Source: Arthrobacter sp. NIO-1057 (GTDB taxonomy: Bacteria; Actinomycetota; Actinomycetes; Actinomycetales; Micrococcaceae). Taken from it: DNA of 64,000 nucleotides. The stretch is taken from assembly GCF_900094805.1 (NCBI RefSeq), contig NZ_FMAT01000001.1, positions 434,001 through 498,000 of the forward strand, read 5' to 3'. The translations under genes and the position numbers were made by a program. Under the pieces are notes generated by a model. It was not told the origin of the DNA and did no database searches. It saw nothing but the letters and a program-made list of their open reading frames with translations. Below, one piece after another: positions 1 to 11,710 of this stretch (positions are counted from its first letter, which is position 1; each line of letters starts with the position of its first letter).

Positions 1-153
1 GTATCCATATTGGCTACCAGCTACGAGGGTAGCCACCATGTCGGCGGCGCCAACGCCGGTGGCCGCCACAACCAAGCCTGGTCCAATAATTTTCCAGCGT
101 GGTGGGCCAGCGGCCTCAAGGCTCGCATCTGTCGTATGCGTGCTTTCACTCAT
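1..153 (-). CDS. Nramp-related membrane transporter, N-terminal 51 residues (cut by left edge)
   Basis: This partial minus-strand gene starts with ATG at 153 behind an AAGGAAA ribosome site and runs off the left edge. The visible part has a polar 20-residue tail and then a first membrane segment ending in GSQYGY, which matches the start of Nramp (COG1914) transporters. At the place where metal-transporting Nramp proteins carry DPGN, this protein has GAAD, so the usual TM1 metal ligands are not conserved and the substrate may not be Mn(II) or Fe(II). It diverges from a two-component system and a TAXI binding protein, which suggests regulation by them. Family assignment is fairly sure; substrate is unknown. 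Confidence 0.75.
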   Translation of the reverse strand, partial: MSESTHTTDASLEAAGPPRWKIIGPGLVVAATGVGAADMVATLVAGSQYGY

Positions 154-391
154 TAAGTTTTCCTTTGTCACAGTGCGGTGAGCTTGAGTCGCATCGTCGG
201 TGATGTAGACCACAAGCATGTGAGATCGTCTTCAATAGTGGTAGTGATTTAGATTACTTGCAAACCAAAGGGGAACTACTAACACTTTCTTAGGACAAGG
301 GGCCGTAACCACAAAGTGACACGAGGAAAATTGTTAGGATGGCACTGTAATCACGGGCTTCACGCCCAACCAGAACACCAAGGACGGTGCC
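154..391. promoter_or_regulatory. Divergent intergenic region between transporter and two-component operon
   Basis: This 238-base gap must carry the promoters of the Nramp-related gene (minus) and of the response-regulator operon (plus). It is AT-richer than its flanks around 240-300. I saw no clear repeated operator that could be assigned to the response regulator, and no open frame with coding character. Confidence 0.5.
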
Positions 392-1060
392 GTGCAACTT
401 TTGATCGTCGAGGACGACCAGGCAGTGGCGGGGGCTCTAATTGACGCGGTGAGTGCTGTGGGTCATGAGGCAACGCACGCTAGTCGGGGATCCGATGCAC
501 TTCTTCGCCACCATGCTGCCGAGCTGATCCTCTTGGATCTTGGCCTACCTGATATGGATGGACTGGAAGTTCTTCGAAAGCTGCGGCAAGTCAGTGACGT
601 TCCGGTGGTCATTCTCAGCGCTAGAGATGACGAAAGAAGTGTTGTGCGTGGATTGCGCCAAGGGGCGGACGACTATCTGGTGAAACCGATCGGTCTGACA
701 GTCTTGTTGGCCAAGATCGAAGCAGTTACCAGGCGGGCCCATATGGGGAGCGCCACGGACAAGAATCAAATTAGCGCCGGCTGCCTGTCTATCAATCTGG
801 ATAAGCGCGAAGCCGTGTTAGACGGTCGACCGTTGGCGCTCACCGCTAAAGAATTTGAATTATTGTCATTGCTCGCGCGACACGCAGGATCAGTGGTGAC
901 CCGTGAACAAATACTCGACCAACTGTGGGGAGATGCTTTCCTCGCGGTGTCGCGTTCCTTGGATGTACATCTGACCGGACTTCGCTCGAAACTCGCAAGC
1001 CCCGGAATGATCGTTAACGTTCGTGGTGTTGGATATCGACTTGAAGCGCCATCTTCGTGA
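392..1060 (+). CDS. OmpR/PhoB-family response regulator (TctD-like)
   Basis: A 222-residue DNA-binding response regulator. The receiver domain (about 1-118) has the acidic pocket at D8-D9, the phospho-acceptor D49 in LLDLGLPDMDG and the conserved K98. A winged-helix transcriptional domain (about 125-220) follows, with EFELLSLLARHAG and a closing GVGYRLE typical of OmpR/PhoB. Start is GTG at 392. The stop overlaps the start of the sensor kinase by 4 bases, so the two are translationally coupled. The arrangement with a solute-binding protein recalls TctD/TctE regulators of carboxylate uptake, and the divergent transporter at the left edge is the likely target. Target and signal are inferred. 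Confidence 0.93.
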   Translation: MQLLIVEDDQAVAGALIDAVSAVGHEATHASRGSDALLRHHAAELILLDLGLPDMDGLEVLRKLRQVSDVPVVILSARDDERSVVRGLRQGADDYLVKPIGLTVLLAKIEAVTRRAHMGSATDKNQISAGCLSINLDKREAVLDGRPLALTAKEFELLSLLARHAGSVVTREQILDQLWGDAFLAVSRSLDVHLTGLRSKLASPGMIVNVRGVGYRLEAPSS

Positions 1061-2496
1061 GAATCAGAGTCTTAGCGGTTCTTGGCTCACTGCTACTGGT
1101 GATCGTGGTGCTTGTCAGTTCCGTGCTGATGCAAAGCGTCAGCAGCGATGCCACATCCGACGTTCAAGTAAACCGCCTTTCCTCACTGAACAGGTTTGTC
1201 CAAGTTGCTTCCCACGTCTCCGGTAAGGACGACCTGGAAATGCTGCAGCTCGAAATGGACACGTATTCTCAGCTCTATAATGAGGGACTTTTGATCGTTG
1301 TTGATGATCGACGACTCGTCTCAGGAGATATTCGAGCAGACGATGCGGCGGTCAAAGCAATAGTTGGAGCCGCCGCGCTGAACCTAGATCGCACGGAAAT
1401 CCCGCAGGTCGGTCCATTTAGTGACACAGCGGCGTTGATATCCCGTCCGTTTGGCAACTCAGCTCAAGTGCTTGGATCAGTGACCATGCAAGTGAATCTG
1501 GAACCAGCGAGGATTCGGGTGCTACAAGCCTCGGCATTCATCATTCTGTTGACGCTGGGCATTGGATTCATTTTCCTGCTGCTGGCTGACCGACTGACGA
1601 CGTGGGTACTTCGACCGCTACACCGACTGGATGACTCCGTTCAATTGCTTACTCAAACGCATCAGCCCATACCGCTTGTAGAGCAAGGACCACCAGAGCT
1701 GCGAGCTTTGTCCCGATCCGTCAGCTCCATGGCCCAAACTATGGCTACCAGCCTTCAACAGCAACAAGAGCTTATTGCCGAAACTTCCCACCAACTCCGC
1801 AACCCAGTGGCAGCCCTGAGATTACGCGTGGATCTGCTGAAAATGCGTCTGACCGACGGGCCGAGCCTCGCAGGATTGCATACAGTCGAAAATGAACTAG
1901 CTCGCTTGGAAATGCTATTAGACGGTGTGCTGCGTTTAGCCAGTGCGGAACATCGATTGACTGAACAGAAATCCGACAAGACCGACACCGATGTGGCGCG
2001 ACCTCAAAAGCCAACATATGTCTTTCAAATCCTCGCCGAAGAAATTGAGCGTCAGTCGGCCATGGCCCAAAAAACCGGCAATACCCTGACATTGAATGGA
2101 AATTCAAAGTCCGCGTCAGAGGACGTGGTCTGGTGTCATGAATTTGATTTGCAACAAATGGTCACCGAGCTATTGGACAATGCATTGAAATACGCTCCGG
2201 GTACCGAAATCAAACTAGGACTGTATAAGTCACCAACCACCGTCGACATCATGGTCCATGATCAAGGCCCAGGTTTGCAGCCAAATGAACTTCAGCGAGC
2301 AGGAGAACGTTTTTGGCGAAGTGAAAAAGTCAAAGACACCCCGGGAACTGGACTAGGCCTAGCAATCGTCGATCGTCTGGCACGCGCAAATTCTGGACAG
2401 CTGATCTTCGATTCCCACGGTGGAGCTGGCCTGAAAGCGACCATCAGATTGCCGCGCGCGTCAACAACGGATGGGGAGCGTCATGACAGGGGATAA
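1057..2496 (+). CDS. Membrane sensor histidine kinase (TctE-like)
   Basis: A 479-residue sensor kinase and partner of the regulator just upstream. It has an N-terminal membrane segment (about 5-26), an extracytoplasmic sensing region (about 27-155), a second membrane segment (about 157-178), a HAMP linker, a HisKA dimerisation domain with the phospho-acceptor H245 in ETSHQLRNP, and an HATPase domain with N box LLDNALKYAP and G box GTGLGLAIVDRL. Start GTG at 1057 overlaps the previous stop. The outer domain of about 130 residues could bind a small ligand itself or read out the TAXI lipoprotein encoded next. The ligand is unknown. Confidence 0.93.
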   Translation: MRIRVLAVLGSLLLVIVVLVSSVLMQSVSSDATSDVQVNRLSSLNRFVQVASHVSGKDDLEMLQLEMDTYSQLYNEGLLIVVDDRRLVSGDIRADDAAVKAIVGAAALNLDRTEIPQVGPFSDTAALISRPFGNSAQVLGSVTMQVNLEPARIRVLQASAFIILLTLGIGFIFLLLADRLTTWVLRPLHRLDDSVQLLTQTHQPIPLVEQGPPELRALSRSVSSMAQTMATSLQQQQELIAETSHQLRNPVAALRLRVDLLKMRLTDGPSLAGLHTVENELARLEMLLDGVLRLASAEHRLTEQKSDKTDTDVARPQKPTYVFQILAEEIERQSAMAQKTGNTLTLNGNSKSASEDVVWCHEFDLQQMVTELLDNALKYAPGTEIKLGLYKSPTTVDIMVHDQGPGLQPNELQRAGERFWRSEKVKDTPGTGLGLAIVDRLARANSGQLIFDSHGGAGLKATIRLPRASTTDGERHDRG

Positions 2497-3457
2497 CACT
2501 TTACAACGCCGTACTCTACTTAAGCTGCTCGTCTCAGCTCCGGCACTCATGACAATGCCGTTGATTAGCTCGTGTAGTGCCCTGGCCACTGAACAACAAC
2601 TTGACATCGCTTCAGGCGAAGAAGGAGGGATGTACTACGAATTCGCGCAACTCTTATCATCCGCATTGGTGGGAAACTCGATAGCAGAGCATTCAACTGC
2701 ACTCAATACAGAAGCAAGTGCGCAAAATCTTGAACTGCTTGTCACCGGTCGTGCTCAACTAGCGTTGGCGCTAGCCGATACCGTCGCTGAATTTCGTGCG
2801 CAAACACCGGAACAAGGCAAAATCCGTGCCTTAGGACGTGTTTATCAGAACTATTTTCATTGCATTCTTCGCGCAGACAGCGACGTAAGATCCCTCGGCG
2901 ATTTCCCTGGCCGTTCCATCGGGACAGGTGCCGCAGGCTCCGGTACGTGGGTGACAGGCCAAAGAATTTTAAGCGTTGCGGGAATCAAAGACCATAAGAA
3001 CGCTCCACAGGAACATATCCTGGGCTATACCGCGGGAATCAAAGCGCTGCGACGAGGCGAGATCGATGCGCTATTTCTATTTGGCGGAATGCCCGTGCGC
3101 CCATTGGCTGAACTAGCCGAAGAACTGGAACTGAAACTCCTCGATATTTCCGAAGTGCTTCCAAAATTACGTGATGCCTACCCCGGACTATATGACCGGG
3201 TCGTCATTCCACCTAATACGTACCCGGATGTACCTGCCATCGACACCATTGGCGTCAGCAACCTATTGATGGCCCGAGCCGATCTACCTAACAAAACGGC
3301 AAAAGCCGTAGTCAAGCTCCTTGCCACCGAAGCCCAACAGCTCGTACCCCAATCAAGCGCTGGAATTCAGCATTTAACCCCTGAAACGCTCATCAGCACC
3401 GCGGGACAACCACTTCATCGTGGCGCACGCGAAGCTTATCTCGAATTGCATGGATAG
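2483..3457 (+). CDS. TAXI-family solute-binding lipoprotein
   Basis: A 324-residue extracytoplasmic binding protein of the TAXI (TRAP-associated immunogenic) family. The chosen ATG at 2483 follows GGGGAG, better placed than the in-frame ATG at 2471. The N-terminus has a twin-arginine-like QRRTLLK followed by a hydrophobic stretch and the lipobox LISSC, so it is probably exported, perhaps by Tat, and lipid-anchored. The mature part begins with the family signature LDIASGEEGGMYYEFA and contains GTGAAGSGT. No DctQ/DctM-type membrane genes are adjacent, so it may serve as a sensory binding protein for the upstream kinase rather than a transport component. The ligand is unknown. Confidence 0.87.
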   Translation: MTGDNTLQRRTLLKLLVSAPALMTMPLISSCSALATEQQLDIASGEEGGMYYEFAQLLSSALVGNSIAEHSTALNTEASAQNLELLVTGRAQLALALADTVAEFRAQTPEQGKIRALGRVYQNYFHCILRADSDVRSLGDFPGRSIGTGAAGSGTWVTGQRILSVAGIKDHKNAPQEHILGYTAGIKALRRGEIDALFLFGGMPVRPLAELAEELELKLLDISEVLPKLRDAYPGLYDRVVIPPNTYPDVPAIDTIGVSNLLMARADLPNKTAKAVVKLLATEAQQLVPQSSAGIQHLTPETLISTAGQPLHRGAREAYLELHG

Positions 3458-7571: not shown

Positions 7572-8834
7572 GTGCACGCGTGGAAAAATCCTGAGGTACC
7601 TCAGGTGGCTGGTTCAGCACCAATTTTGGAACTTTTTAACACCGCCACCGGAAACCTGCAGGCCACCGCACCTGCGGATGCGGCCAATACAGCCGCCAGC
7701 ATGTACGTTTGCGGGATCACCCCGTACGACGCTACCCACATGGGGCATGCCTCCACCTACGTCACCTTCGACCTGGTACACCGTACTTGGTTGGACAACG
7801 GCCGTTCCGTGACCTACACCCAAAACATCACCGACGTTGATGACCCACTGCTTGAACGTGCAGAAGCTACCGGTGTGGATTGGCGCGACCTTGCTGAACA
7901 GCAGGTACAGCTGTTCCGCGACGATATGGAAGCACTGAACGTGATTCCACCTCAAAACTATATTGGTGCCGTTGAATCCATCGATTGGTTGGTGCCTGTT
8001 GTGGAGCAACTGCTTGAGGCGGACTTGGCTTACCGCGTCCCCGCTGGCGCTGATGGAGTGGAGGGCGATATCTACTTTGATACCTATGCCGCTGAAAACG
8101 AGGCATGGAGACTAGGGTCGGTGTCGAACTATGACCGCGAGACCATGTTGGGGTTCTTTGCTGAGCGTGGTGGCGATCCACAACGTGTTGGTAAGCGTGA
8201 TGCTCTGGATCCATTGCTCTGGCGAGCAGCCCGAGAAGGCGAACCATCCTGGGCCGGCGGCAAGCTGGGGACCGGACGTCCCGGATGGCACATTGAGTGT
8301 TCGGTGATCGCACGGAAAACCTTGCCAGCACCCTTCACTGTGCAAGGCGGCGGCTCTGACCTTATCTTCCCGCACCACGAGTTTTCGGCAGCTCACGCGG
8401 CGGCGAGCGACCATCAGGAACTCGCCCAGACTTACGTCCACACGGGCATGGTTGGCCTGGACGGTGAAAAGATGAGCAAGTCCTTAGGCAACTTGGTGCT
8501 TGTCTCTAAGCTTCGCGCCGCAGGAGTCGAACCAGTAGCCATTCGAGCAGTATTACTGTCCCAGCACTACCGCACCAATTGGTTCTGGACCGACGAACTG
8601 CTCAACCTTGCACAACAACGCGTAGCCTCATGGCGTGAGCGTTTACAAGGTACCGGACTTGCTGAAGCCACCGCTTTGCTAGCGAGTATTCGCTCGCGTA
8701 TGGCCAACGACCTTGACGCACCAGGGGCCCTGGAAGCCATCGACCATTGGGCCGCACAGCCCGCTGATGGCAGCTCAGATGGTGAGCAAGTACTCCGCGA
8801 TGGTTTTGATGCGCTACTAGGCCTCAAACTCTAA
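7572..8834 (+). CDS. mshC: Mycothiol ligase MshC (Cys:GlcN-Ins ligase)
   Basis: A 420-residue class-I tRNA-synthetase-like enzyme that uses ATP to join cysteine to GlcN-Ins in mycothiol synthesis in the cytosol. It has the HIGH-type motif HMGHAST (about residue 57), the zinc/cysteine-binding [14 protein letters not shown] region, and the signature KMSKSLGNL near residue 297. Its length fits MshC rather than the longer CysS, and the opening (W[13 protein letters not shown]) is MshC-like. The GTG start follows AAAGG. Mycothiol is the main low-molecular-weight thiol of actinobacteria. Confidence 0.95.
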
Positions 8835-8869
8835 GGTCTAAGGAATCAACCAGCAGTATCTCTGATGTT

Positions 8870-8904
8870 CAGGGGTCGACTTCAAATATCGAAGTCGGCC
8901 CCTG
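8870..8904. terminator. Bidirectional hairpin between mshC and PAC2 gene
   Basis: A 14-base stem (CAGGGGTCGACTTC against its complement, one G-T pair) with a 7-base loop lies between the convergent mshC and PAC2 genes and overlaps the last codons of the latter. It can serve as a terminator in both directions. Confidence 0.75.
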
Positions 8905-9790
8905 ACCCATCCTGCCGGAACTTGCCCCGACGGCGCAGGTAACGTTCAAATTCTCGAGCAATGGACTCACCGCTGGCCTCAGGTAAGTCGCTGGTATCTG
9001 TCGCCTCTTCCAGTTGCTTCACATACTTGGCTATATCCGGGTCCGCAGCGGAGAGCTCATCCACACCGTGTTTCCAAGCCAGGGCATCTTCGCGTAATTG
9101 CTGATCTGCGACGGTGATGGGCAGTAACTCTTCGAGCATTTCGATCAGCGCCAGTTGGACCCGTGGGCTAGGGGACTGGGCCACATAGTGGGAAAGTTGT
9201 GCCCACAGCGCCATGCTGGGAATGCCGGCGCGGTCAAACTCGACGCCAAGAACCGAGGGGATACCGGACGGGCCATCATAGTCCGAGGCTTCGATTTTGA
9301 AGTGTTCCTGAAGCCTGGCATCGTCACTGGATAGTGACGTGGGAACAGGTCGTGTATGAGGCACATCCGCCAGGAGTGCTCCCAAAGTGAGTACGGCTTG
9401 TGCGTTATGTTTACGGGCGACCTCAATGATCTGTGCGCAGAAGGACTGCCATTTGAAAGTTGGTTCAACTCCGAGGACCACCAGTAGGTCCGCTGAGGCA
9501 TGTGGCAACGCCAGCTTATAGATTTCGGTGCGTGGCCAATCAACCACTCGGCCCTGGGCGGTGCGGCGAGTCTTGGGCCGAGAGAACTGATAATCGTAAA
9601 AGTCATCAAGTCCAACGGTCGCAACATGCTCAAAGGTGTTTTCTTCGAGGACCAGTCTTAGTGCACCCGATGCCGCGGAGCCAGCGTCATTCCAGCCTTC
9701 GAAGGCTGCCAAGACAATAGTGGGGCGAATCTCATGCTCGGTCCCAGCGATGTAACTATCTAGCGTTGGGGTGTGGAAATCCTTGTTCAT
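8882..9790 (-). CDS. PAC2 family protein
   Basis: A 302-residue protein of the PAC2 family, named for proteasome assembly chaperone 2-like proteins and widespread in actinobacteria. Recognisable parts are AAFEGWNDAGSAA near residue 28, a LVVLGVEPTFKW core and a Glu/Asp-rich C-terminal helical region. The family is structurally similar to nucleoside-phosphorylase-like folds but has no proven enzymatic role in actinobacteria. It lies upstream of the pupylation region, though with no demonstrated link. It converges on mshC and diverges from the HAD gene. Confidence 0.88.
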   Translation of the reverse strand: MNKDFHTPTLDSYIAGTEHEIRPTIVLAAFEGWNDAGSAASGALRLVLEENTFEHVATVGLDDFYDYQFSRPKTRRTAQGRVVDWPRTEIYKLALPHASADLLVVLGVEPTFKWQSFCAQIIEVARKHNAQAVLTLGALLADVPHTRPVPTSLSSDDARLQEHFKIEASDYDGPSGIPSVLGVEFDRAGIPSMALWAQLSHYVAQSPSPRVQLALIEMLEELLPITVADQQLREDALAWKHGVDELSAADPDIAKYVKQLEEATDTSDLPEASGESIAREFERYLRRRGKFRQDGSGADFDI

Positions 9791-9872
9791 CGAAAACTCC
9801 TATGCAGCGTTCTCGCCATGGACGTGGCTTGCCGAAGCGGCTTAGCCCCACTCTTCCATCTAGAATGGACTC

Positions 9873-10586
9873 ATGCCAAGCACCAGTTTTGACTTTGACT
9901 CCGGTCCAGACACCAGATCACCGCAAGCGGTCCTCTGGGATATGGACGGCACGCTGATCGACACCGAGCCCTATTGGCTGGTCGCCGAGGCCGAACTGGT
10001 CGCCTCCCATGGTGGAACCTGGACTGAAGAGCAAGGCCTAGCCTTAGTCGGTAGCGCGCTACCTAACTCCGCCCGTGTTTTGCAAGAAGCCGGCGTGCAA
10101 TTGCCGGTGCGTGAAATCATCGACCTACTGAGCACTCAGGTGGTAGCCGGGCTACGCAAGGAAATCCCTTGGCGTCCGGGTGCTCGTAAATTGTTAGCCG
10201 CCTGCAAAGCAGCGAACATTCCGCAGGCACTGGTGACGATGTCAGAGCGCAGCATCGTCAACGAGTTTTTGGATCAATTGCCTGCCGGCACGTTCCAGGT
10301 TTCAGTCACCGGTGAAGAAGTAGCCAACGGCAAACCGGACCCAGAACCGTATCTCACCGGCTTGCGTTTGTTAGAAGACGCTGTCGGTAATGAACTCAGC
10401 GCACAAAAGTGCATTGGTTTCGAAGATTCGGTGCCGGGCATCGCTTCAGCCTCAGCAGCTGGATTGCACGCAGTGCTCGTACCCAACGCCACGGACCCCG
10501 GTGAGGGGAATTGGCGTCGAATAGCAAGCCTCGATGGTGTGGACGTTCAAGAAATGACTCGATGGTTGGTGCAGGTTAGCGCGTGA
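9873..10586 (+). CDS. HAD-superfamily hydrolase
   Basis: A 237-residue haloacid-dehalogenase-type phosphatase. Motif I is WDMDGTLIDTEPYW (nucleophile and acid/base Asp, about 24-37), motif II lies in LVTMSERS, motif III lysine in NGKPDPEPY, and motif IV in IGFEDSVPGI. The helical cap after motif I marks the beta-phosphoglucomutase/phosphatase-like subgroup. Substrate is not predictable. Its stop overlaps the next start by 4 bases, so it is coupled to the M50 protease. Confidence 0.92.
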   Translation: MPSTSFDFDSGPDTRSPQAVLWDMDGTLIDTEPYWLVAEAELVASHGGTWTEEQGLALVGSALPNSARVLQEAGVQLPVREIIDLLSTQVVAGLRKEIPWRPGARKLLAACKAANIPQALVTMSERSIVNEFLDQLPAGTFQVSVTGEEVANGKPDPEPYLTGLRLLEDAVGNELSAQKCIGFEDSVPGIASASAAGLHAVLVPNATDPGEGNWRRIASLDGVDVQEMTRWLVQVSA

Positions 10587-11710
10587 GCGAAACTTCAGAA
10601 AAATCCCCCGGAATTAAACTAGGTCGTATCGGCGGAGTTCCGGTTTATCTCTCGAGCTCGTGGTTCATCATCACGGCCGTGATCACCGTTTCCATGGGAC
10701 TGCAGCTTTCTCGTAGTCAGTGGATTCCAGGTCTGGGCGCATATGTTTTGGGCTTTGCCTGCGCGGTGGCGATCGCCATAGCCGTGCTTGTCCACGAGGT
10801 CGCTCACGCCATGACAGCTCGCGCTTTCAAATGGCCCGACGCGCATATCGTGCTGACACTCATGGGCGGCCACACCCAATTTGGATCGTTTAAAGCCAAG
10901 CCTGGTGCCTCGCTGTGGGTTGCCTTGGCTGGGCCGGTATCTAATTTTGTGCTTGCCGGTGTGGGCTGGCTGGTTATTCAGAACCTTGAGCCAGGTATTT
11001 ACTCGAAGTTGCTCCTTGACTTCTTCGTATACGCCAACCTGTTGCTCGGTGCGTTTAACGCGTTGCCCGGACTGCCACTAGATGGTGGCCGACTGGTCGA
11101 ATCAATCGTTTGGAAGGCCACCGGCTCCCAGTTCAAAGGTACTATCGCTTCTAGCTGGGTAGGCCGCGTTATCGCCGTGGGCGTTGTATTCTTCTTCGTT
11201 ATTTACCCTTATTTGCGGGGTCAAGAAGTCCAAATCATCACGGCAGTGGTGGGTTTGATGGTGGCGGTGTTCATGTGGCAAGCCACCACTGGGTTGATTG
11301 CCCACTCAAAGATGATGCTTAACCTACCAACCGTGATTGCTTCAGATCTGATGAAGCCTGCTTCTGCCATGCTGTCCCAGGTCACCGTGGCCGATGTATT
11401 CGTCCGGTTGAACCAACGTGGTGGTGAAATCATTCTTGTTGACGCTAAGGGAATGCCAGTGGGCGTCGTTGACGCCCAAGCAATTTCACGGGTTAATCCA
11501 TCGCAGGCCACTGAAGTTCCTGCATTGGCCGTAGCCAGGGCGTTGGGACAGGGCGCGATCGTGGCCGAAGATTCAGATGGGCGGGCACTGATTGACTACC
11601 TCGCCACCGTGAGCTCGGCTGAATACGCCGTGATCAGTGGGCAAGGGCATGTGGTTGGTCTGCTGCATCAGCAGGATATCGTCAACGCCGTGACCGGACG
11701 ACGCAAGTAA
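10583..11710 (+). CDS. Site-2 protease family (M50) metalloprotease with C-terminal CBS-like domain
   Basis: A 375-residue membrane zinc protease that would cut substrates within the bilayer. HEVAH at 71-75 in the second membrane segment and LDGGRLVE (about 171) supply the zinc ligands. About six membrane segments (to residue about 240) are followed by a cytoplasmic portion resembling paired CBS repeats (VIASDLMKPA, then GHVVGLLHQQDIV), which in this subgroup may sense adenine nucleotides. It overlaps the HAD gene. The substrate, possibly an anti-sigma factor, is unknown. Confidence 0.92.
   Translation: MSETSEKSPGIKLGRIGGVPVYLSSSWFIITAVITVSMGLQLSRSQWIPGLGAYVLGFACAVAIAIAVLVHEVAHAMTARAFKWPDAHIVLTLMGGHTQFGSFKAKPGASLWVALAGPVSNFVLAGVGWLVIQNLEPGIYSKLLLDFFVYANLLLGAFNALPGLPLDGGRLVESIVWKATGSQFKGTIASSWVGRVIAVGVVFFFVIYPYLRGQEVQIITAVVGLMVAVFMWQATTGLIAHSKMMLNLPTVIASDLMKPASAMLSQVTVADVFVRLNQRGGEIILVDAKGMPVGVVDAQAISRVNPSQATEVPALAVARALGQGAIVAEDSDGRALIDYLATVSSAEYAVISGQGHVVGLLHQQDIVNAVTGRRK

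Follow-up and report, generated by a model that had tools for sequence, protein, structure and literature searches.

A predicted operator ties an Nramp-family carrier gene to a TAXI-containing two-component operon in Glutamicibacter

At the start of a 64,000-nucleotide stretch of the genome of Arthrobacter sp. NIO-1057 (hereafter the window, meaning the whole stretch analysed), a gene for an Nramp-family carrier diverges from an operon encoding an OmpR-family response regulator (RR), a sensor histidine kinase (HK) and a TAXI solute-binding lipoprotein. This four-gene module is real and conserved, and the RR very likely controls the carrier gene, as computed from an operator-like box that lies between the two genes and recurs at unlinked Nramp-like genes. 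On balance, we consider that the operon probably senses a carboxylate outside the cytoplasm and controls the transporter promoter, with the carrier importing an organic acid. The genus name Glutamicibacter used below was taken from named records of relatives; Arthrobacter stands on 2 of these 8 records.

The predicted operator box and the genes behind it

An alignment of 17 Nramp|RR intergenic regions contained one strongly conserved block, CTAACACTNTCTTAG. In the window, the RR operator predicted from this conserved-block comparison occupies positions 279-293 on the plus strand (core CTAACACTTTCTTAG; relatives have the fuller CCTAACACTTCCTTAGG). The carrier start lies about 125 bp away on one side and the RR start 98 bp away on the other.

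The trio of RR, HK and TAXI genes is divergent from the Nramp-like gene in 17 of 17 TAXI-bearing Glutamicibacter genomes (18 searched), and the four genes were adjacent in all 8 loci of the first comparison set. Synteny in Glutamicibacter extends to the M20 peptidase and acyl-CoA dehydrogenase genes on the flanks, and adjacency by itself is therefore weak evidence. In the family as a whole, 66 genomes have a TAXI match; 41 full-trio loci together with L184 and L186 were examined with their flanks, the other 23 being left out. In all 24 full-trio loci examined from other Micrococcaceae, the RR gene is adjoined by a gene for an MHS-like transporter of the major facilitator superfamily (MFS), divergent in 17 and co-directional in 7, and the RRs are 54-70% identical. 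A POT-type peptide transporter was rejected as the partner at L079, where a better gene call puts an MHS gene between the POT gene and the RR gene. The neighbourhood to which the original prediction had pointed is thus conserved as four genes in 17 of 18 Glutamicibacter genomes, whereas in the other Micrococcaceae loci examined the trio adjoins an MHS-like gene instead, a neighbour that this prediction had overlooked.

The same box was found in the divergent MHS|RR regions, with 0 or 1 mismatch in 16 of the 17 and 3 mismatches in L182. At the seven co-directional loci, it is missing before the RR gene and was found upstream of the MHS-like gene in six, and its orientation towards the transporter is identical throughout. 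L183, the sole co-directional locus without the box, also has an altered RR recognition region. When up to 2 mismatches are allowed, the box is present in 16/17 Nramp|RR and 16/17 divergent MHS|RR regions; in first-order Markov shuffles of these regions, it appeared in 3/680 and 0/680, respectively.

In genus g83, the trio and an Nramp-like orthologue (82-86% identical) lie at least 270 kb apart or on separate contigs. All ten g83 genomes with both the trio and the orthologue carry the box ahead of the unlinked Nramp-like gene, with its orientation unchanged and no more than 1 mismatch. Among 33 Nramp-like loci without a close trio, none has the box at up to 1 mismatch, and a single one (L244) has it at 2 mismatches in the opposite orientation. 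These comparison loci include L239 (from G367, a g83 genome that is 88% complete and in which no TAXI gene was found) and that of G265, a Glutamicibacter genome, and some come from genomes with a TRAP-type TAXI protein or a distant trio; left out of the set were L245 (G260), L100 (gene with an internal stop) and the carrier promoters of G149 and G151 (distant TAXI gene). In G260, which holds the trio L183, the carrier promoter at L245 lacks the box, showing 3 mismatches in the opposite orientation. At the G265 locus (L197, 8072-10398), an open reading frame (ORF) resembling a ribonucleotide reductase small subunit by eye is found in the gap where the trio and box are missing.

The unlinked loci bear directly on the alternative that the Nramp-like gene is an unrelated neighbour held in place by genus-level synteny only. 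The likewise syntenic flanking genes would be expected on this account, but it is hardly credible, as unlinked Nramp-like promoters carry the box where there is a trio and lack it where there is none. A chance neighbourhood was rejected because the operator is also found at unlinked Nramp-like loci.

A strict box scan of 20 whole genomes gave 26 sites in 19 genomes, and 4 sites for the reversed pattern. Read in their loci, the 26 sites are directly upstream of an MHS-like gene (18) or an Nramp-like gene (8), in one orientation. The 18 Glutamicibacter genomes contain 11 exact matches to the core, all at this locus. At up to 1 mismatch, they contain 30 matches, 15 here and 15 elsewhere, and the reversed pattern gives 43; on this comparison, additional regulon sites in the genus were rejected as background, and a match elsewhere in the window's own genome (C6:152383) was counted with this background.

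The RR gene itself (392-1060, plus strand) encodes Response_reg and Trans_reg_C domains. Its recognition-helix region, SRSLDVHLTGLR, is common to the Nramp-linked and MHS-linked classes (22 regulators aligned; L208 off by one residue) and is altered in the L183 regulator and in six distant regulators. No box was found at up to 2 mismatches at the loci of these six regulators or at the GluR-type loci. Together, the box at unlinked Nramp-like promoters, the scans and the shared recognition region argue that control of the Nramp-like gene by the RR is very likely, giving in silico support to the earlier claim that the two-component system controls the transporter.

The carrier and its substrate

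The carrier matched PF01566 with 125.3 bits (cut-off 29.8) and NF037982 with 257.8 bits, bearing out the original prediction of an Nramp-related transporter divergent from the RR/HK operon. Its 5' end, comprising 51 codons, lies in the window at positions 1-153 on the minus strand, with the likely ATG at 153 read by eye; the gene extends beyond the window to G000:C3:432873, and a longer ORF starts at 219 (G000:C3:432873-434219). The gene after it codes for an F420-oxidoreductase domain. Further out, mshA/mshC-like mycothiol genes (named by eye) are found at L003:5491-6687 and at 7572-8834 of the window, about 2.2 kb past the carrier gene and 4.1 kb past the TAXI gene.

Compared to the SLC11/NRAMP metal transporters, the carrier shares the PF01566 match and an MntH/EleNRMT-like fold, but DxxN/AxxM is replaced by GxxD in transmembrane segment (TM) 1 and GxxG in TM6, which do not match the DxxG/TxxA/T of NRMT (magnesium) either. 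The metal-carrier motif DxxN-AxxM is visible in 10ky in the alignment. In 25 orthologues sharing 55-91% identity, the TM6 block GGVGGTIT-AAYGYW does not vary, and the replaced site has therefore been kept rather than decayed. The predicted structure, with MntH and EleNRMT as its nearest folds, is of medium confidence (mean pLDDT 73.8) and gives nothing on the substrate. A further PF01566 subgroup (L070 and L071, family f6; 30-32% identical), with GGVGGATGILAYSYW or ...SFW in TM6, is also without the metal motif. Aluminium carriers have been reported to carry DxxN-AxxT and magnesium carriers DxxG-TxxA/T (PMC8806188), and a review describes a PF01566 outgroup without features required for Mn and proton transport (PMC9606685), to which we infer that the carrier belongs.

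A metal could still be the cargo if the sensor responded to a carboxylate that chelates metal, or to a complex of the two, with the Nramp-like protein bringing in a divalent metal in compensation. The carrier's membership of PF01566 and of NF037982, a model named 'Nramp family divalent metal transporter', agrees with this, as do its nearest folds and the reported rise of cellular Mn caused by YcsG (PMC10448178). With the metal residues of TM1 and TM6 replaced, this replacement kept, and an MHS-like protein as the co-regulated partner in other genera, we regard metal import as unlikely.

Three of the MHS-like proteins were scanned, and all scored highest on PRK10406 (441, 523 and 458 bits; cut-off 550), followed by the general MHS model TIGR00883 (397-435 bits; cut-off 443.45), with further matches to TcuC, ProP and ShiA that were all under cut-off. 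PRK10406 is itself named 'MFS family transporter'; KgtP, a 2-oxoglutarate permease, is a member. All 18 Glutamicibacter genomes hold distant MHS relatives, at most 38% identical among the matches listed, and no close relative of the trio-linked MHS protein is among these matches. The Nramp-like gene in Glutamicibacter therefore appears to occupy the place of a probable organic-acid symporter. In other genera, these KgtP-like transporters come with the same operator and trio, but they belong to the MFS and not to PF01566. That the substrate of the carrier is an organic acid has, in our judgement, about an even chance. The fuller proposal, that the carrier represents an organic-acid branch of PF01566 recruited to the regulon of a TAXI-assisted carboxylate sensor, where it replaces the job of the unrelated MHS-like symporter, is a tentative one, to which we give slightly less than an even chance.

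PF01566 proteins have been linked to an organic substrate before: PxpT, an NRAMP-family protein of Corynebacterium glutamicum, is reported to be needed for growth on 5-oxoproline (PMC13274462). The regulator in the PxpT/YcsG branch is the GntR-type PxpR, different from the OmpR-type RR here. A second PF01566 gene is present in the window's own genome, about 6 kb from a LamB/YcsF gene. From this nearness we take it to be PxpT-like, and the carrier of the window is therefore probably not PxpT. The carrier is present in 135/295 family genomes, and the gene neighbourhoods inspected at 18 Nramp-like loci away from the trio offered no shared hint of a substrate.

The TAXI protein and the kinase

The TAXI gene (2471-3457, plus strand) is indeed the third gene of the sensor operon, as the original prediction had stated. 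Its product matched TIGR02122 with 174.8 bits (cut-off 84.35) and has a lipobox ISSC, read by eye. The RR gene overlaps the HK gene (1057-2496, plus strand; HisKA and HATPase_c) by 4 bp, and the latter overlaps the TAXI gene by 26 bp, or by 14 bp if TAXI translation begins at an ATG at 2483. Ahead of the lipobox, the signal peptide (region 2471-2600) opens with a twin-arginine-like QRRTLLK, with similar starts in several relatives, and the TAXI protein may be a Tat-exported lipoprotein. At L077 (G024; 8251-10704, minus strand), HK and TAXI are in one unbroken frame of 817 codons, possibly a natural fusion, although a sequence error could also produce it; an HK-TAXI fusion as a general feature was rejected, as only 1 of 52 same-strand loci (some genomes counted twice) has one unbroken frame.

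The pocket of the TAXI protein was compared with that of the glutamate binder VcGluP, whose columns were mapped through TtGluBP, the VcGluP chain itself being outside the alignment. The tyrosine (Y45 equivalent) and the serine contacting glutamate in VcGluP are both kept, but Leu and Asn stand at the positions of Q93 and E125, which are reported to touch the amino group of glutamate (PMC11574862). The L/N pair is found in all Glutamicibacter and MHS-linked TAXI rows of the alignment. The pocket suits a ligand lacking an amino group (a di- or tricarboxylate, for instance, or a 2-oxo acid) and so weakly suggests one.

Profile searches of the window's own genome (E 0.001) gave no DctM match and no GltS-family match. 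A DctM match over the cut-off is present in 9/18 Glutamicibacter genomes, none close to this locus by coordinates. With no match to either DctM or GltS in the same genome, the TAXI protein lacks a known partner for transport and is most simply read as sensory. From the conserved trio, the overlapping genes and this lack of a TRAP or GltS partner, it is plausible that the TAXI protein reports its ligand to the kinase. The operon has a TAXI protein in common with the TAXI-TRAP and TAXI-GltS systems (Bordetella BP0403), which differ in the partners missing here. Following the proposal for TAXI-GltS, the TAXI protein might instead hand its ligand directly to the Nramp-like carrier: a TAXI protein working without TRAP and with GltS, a non-TRAP secondary carrier, has a reported precedent (PMC12344293), and a genome without a TRAP or GltS partner would agree with this. 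Such a hand-over is nevertheless very improbable, as 24 loci keep the trio intact beside a carrier of quite another kind, and most of the genomes that hold the Nramp-like carrier (104/135) have no TAXI match.

For the extracytoplasmic half of the HK, modelling predicted a PAS/Cache-like domain (mean pLDDT 81.6). Its best structure match was WalK (E 4.9e-5, TMq 0.64), which is an integrative model, followed by chemoreceptor domains with E 4.5e-4 and weaker and TMq at most 0.41; the model and its matches indicate no ligand. The first 240 residues of the HK align with order-level kinases adjoining TAXI genes and share 27% identity with the GluK-like kinase of L110.

Across 149 genomes of the order, TIGR02122 matched in 34, at 44 places, and the flanks of all 44 (43 loci) placed a kinase and a regulator beside the TAXI gene in 16 loci. 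gluABCD-like genes (named by eye) adjoin the regulator in L110, L132, L133 and L134 (family f15), and in L130 they lie downstream of the trio, where SBP_bac_3 was confirmed. Judging by gene order, the f15 pairs would correspond to Streptomyces GluR-GluK. According to a review, GluK/R controls gluABCD and GluK binds glutamate (PMC9739842). An SDF-family dicarboxylate symporter stands beside the system in L075, and a DctM-type TRAP subunit in L107 and L184.

These relatives raise the alternative of a GluR-GluK type system, with a kinase that senses glutamate, an accessory TAXI protein and a carrier for glutamate or a related amino acid. The similarity of the outer half of the HK to the L110 kinase, the five order-level loci with regulator, kinase and TAXI genes beside gluABCD-like genes, and the glutamate binding reported for GluK all lean this way. 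The TAXI subgroup, though, has L and N instead of the VcGluP residues Q93 and E125, the partner carrier of the relatives scores highest on the KgtP-type model, and the GluR-type loci lack the box, which makes glutamate sensing quite unlikely at this locus.

Described systems, proposed mechanism and meaning

GluR-GluK (SCO5778-5779) of Streptomyces coelicolor is the nearest described pair that we found. The two systems are alike in the OmpR-type regulator, the HisKA kinase, the related outer domain (27% over the outer half) and the adjacent transporter; four GluR-GluK-like loci have a TAXI gene too, but by construction, having been found through the TAXI search. Different from the trio, the target of GluR-GluK is an ABC glutamate transporter and the TAXI gene is convergent; no common operator was found, the TAXI pocket differs, and gluABCD is not adjacent to the window trio.

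In TctD-TctE and BctCDE, a two-component system and a binding protein occur close to a transporter for carboxylates, and the RR and HK had been labelled TctD/TctE-like. Membership of TctDE was rejected, as a Pfam search (up to E 0.001) found no TctE-type sensor domain (2CSK_N) in the HK. In NCBIfam, TctD ranks only 19th among the matches of the RR (127.3 bits; cut-off 337); first is MtrA, at 174.5 bits also under its cut-off, and among the best 25 matches no NCBIfam cut-off is reached by the RR or the HK. Nor is the TctA permease adjacent: the window is on contig C3, and all four TctA genes are on C4, C8 and C12.

Among the papers listed in searches of open-licence literature, none describes such a system and none was found on TAXI with NRAMP. 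Within this scope, the claim that no system of this composition has been described stands for the Nramp-like target but not for the sensor; the gluABCD-like genes at five related order-level pairs had also gone unnoticed. A two-component sensor with a binding protein adjoining the transporter that it controls is a known kind of system, and the Nramp-like target is its new part.

We propose the following mechanism. The TAXI lipoprotein would bind a small organic acid and act on the kinase at its PAS/Cache-like outer domain; the kinase, as expected from its family, would phosphorylate the OmpR-type RR. From footprinting by sequence comparison, the RR is predicted to bind the box at 279-293 between the divergent promoters and act on the carrier gene, and perhaps on its own operon as well. 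The carrier, with its replaced metal site, would then take up the organic acid that is sensed, or one closely related to it. Under the same operator, an MHS-like (KgtP-like) symporter would fill the role of the carrier in other Micrococcaceae.

Several points weigh against carboxylate sensing coupled to organic-acid import. The contact between the TAXI protein and the kinase is one that we infer, and the organic-acid ligand and substrate are both putative. The L/N pair of the pocket also occurs in seven other TAXI rows (L107_0, L111, L119, L120, L121, L123 and L184_0), so it is not specific, and none of the three scanned MHS-like proteins reaches an NCBIfam cut-off. One Glutamicibacter box, at L174, is degenerate, and G265, which has no trio, retains the carrier without the box. 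More broadly, the 104 of 135 carrier-bearing family genomes without a TAXI match imply that the basic job of the carrier is independent of the sensor, and YcsG, the relative of PxpT, is reported as a Mn2+ importer (PMC10448178).

The genome has a TAXI-containing sensor but no transporter partner for a TAXI protein, which supports the view that such a protein can have a purely sensory role. Furthermore, the operator links the carrier both to a sensor of carboxylate type and to a probable symporter of organic acids, suggesting that the metal label may be wrong for a group of carriers common in the family (135/295 genomes).

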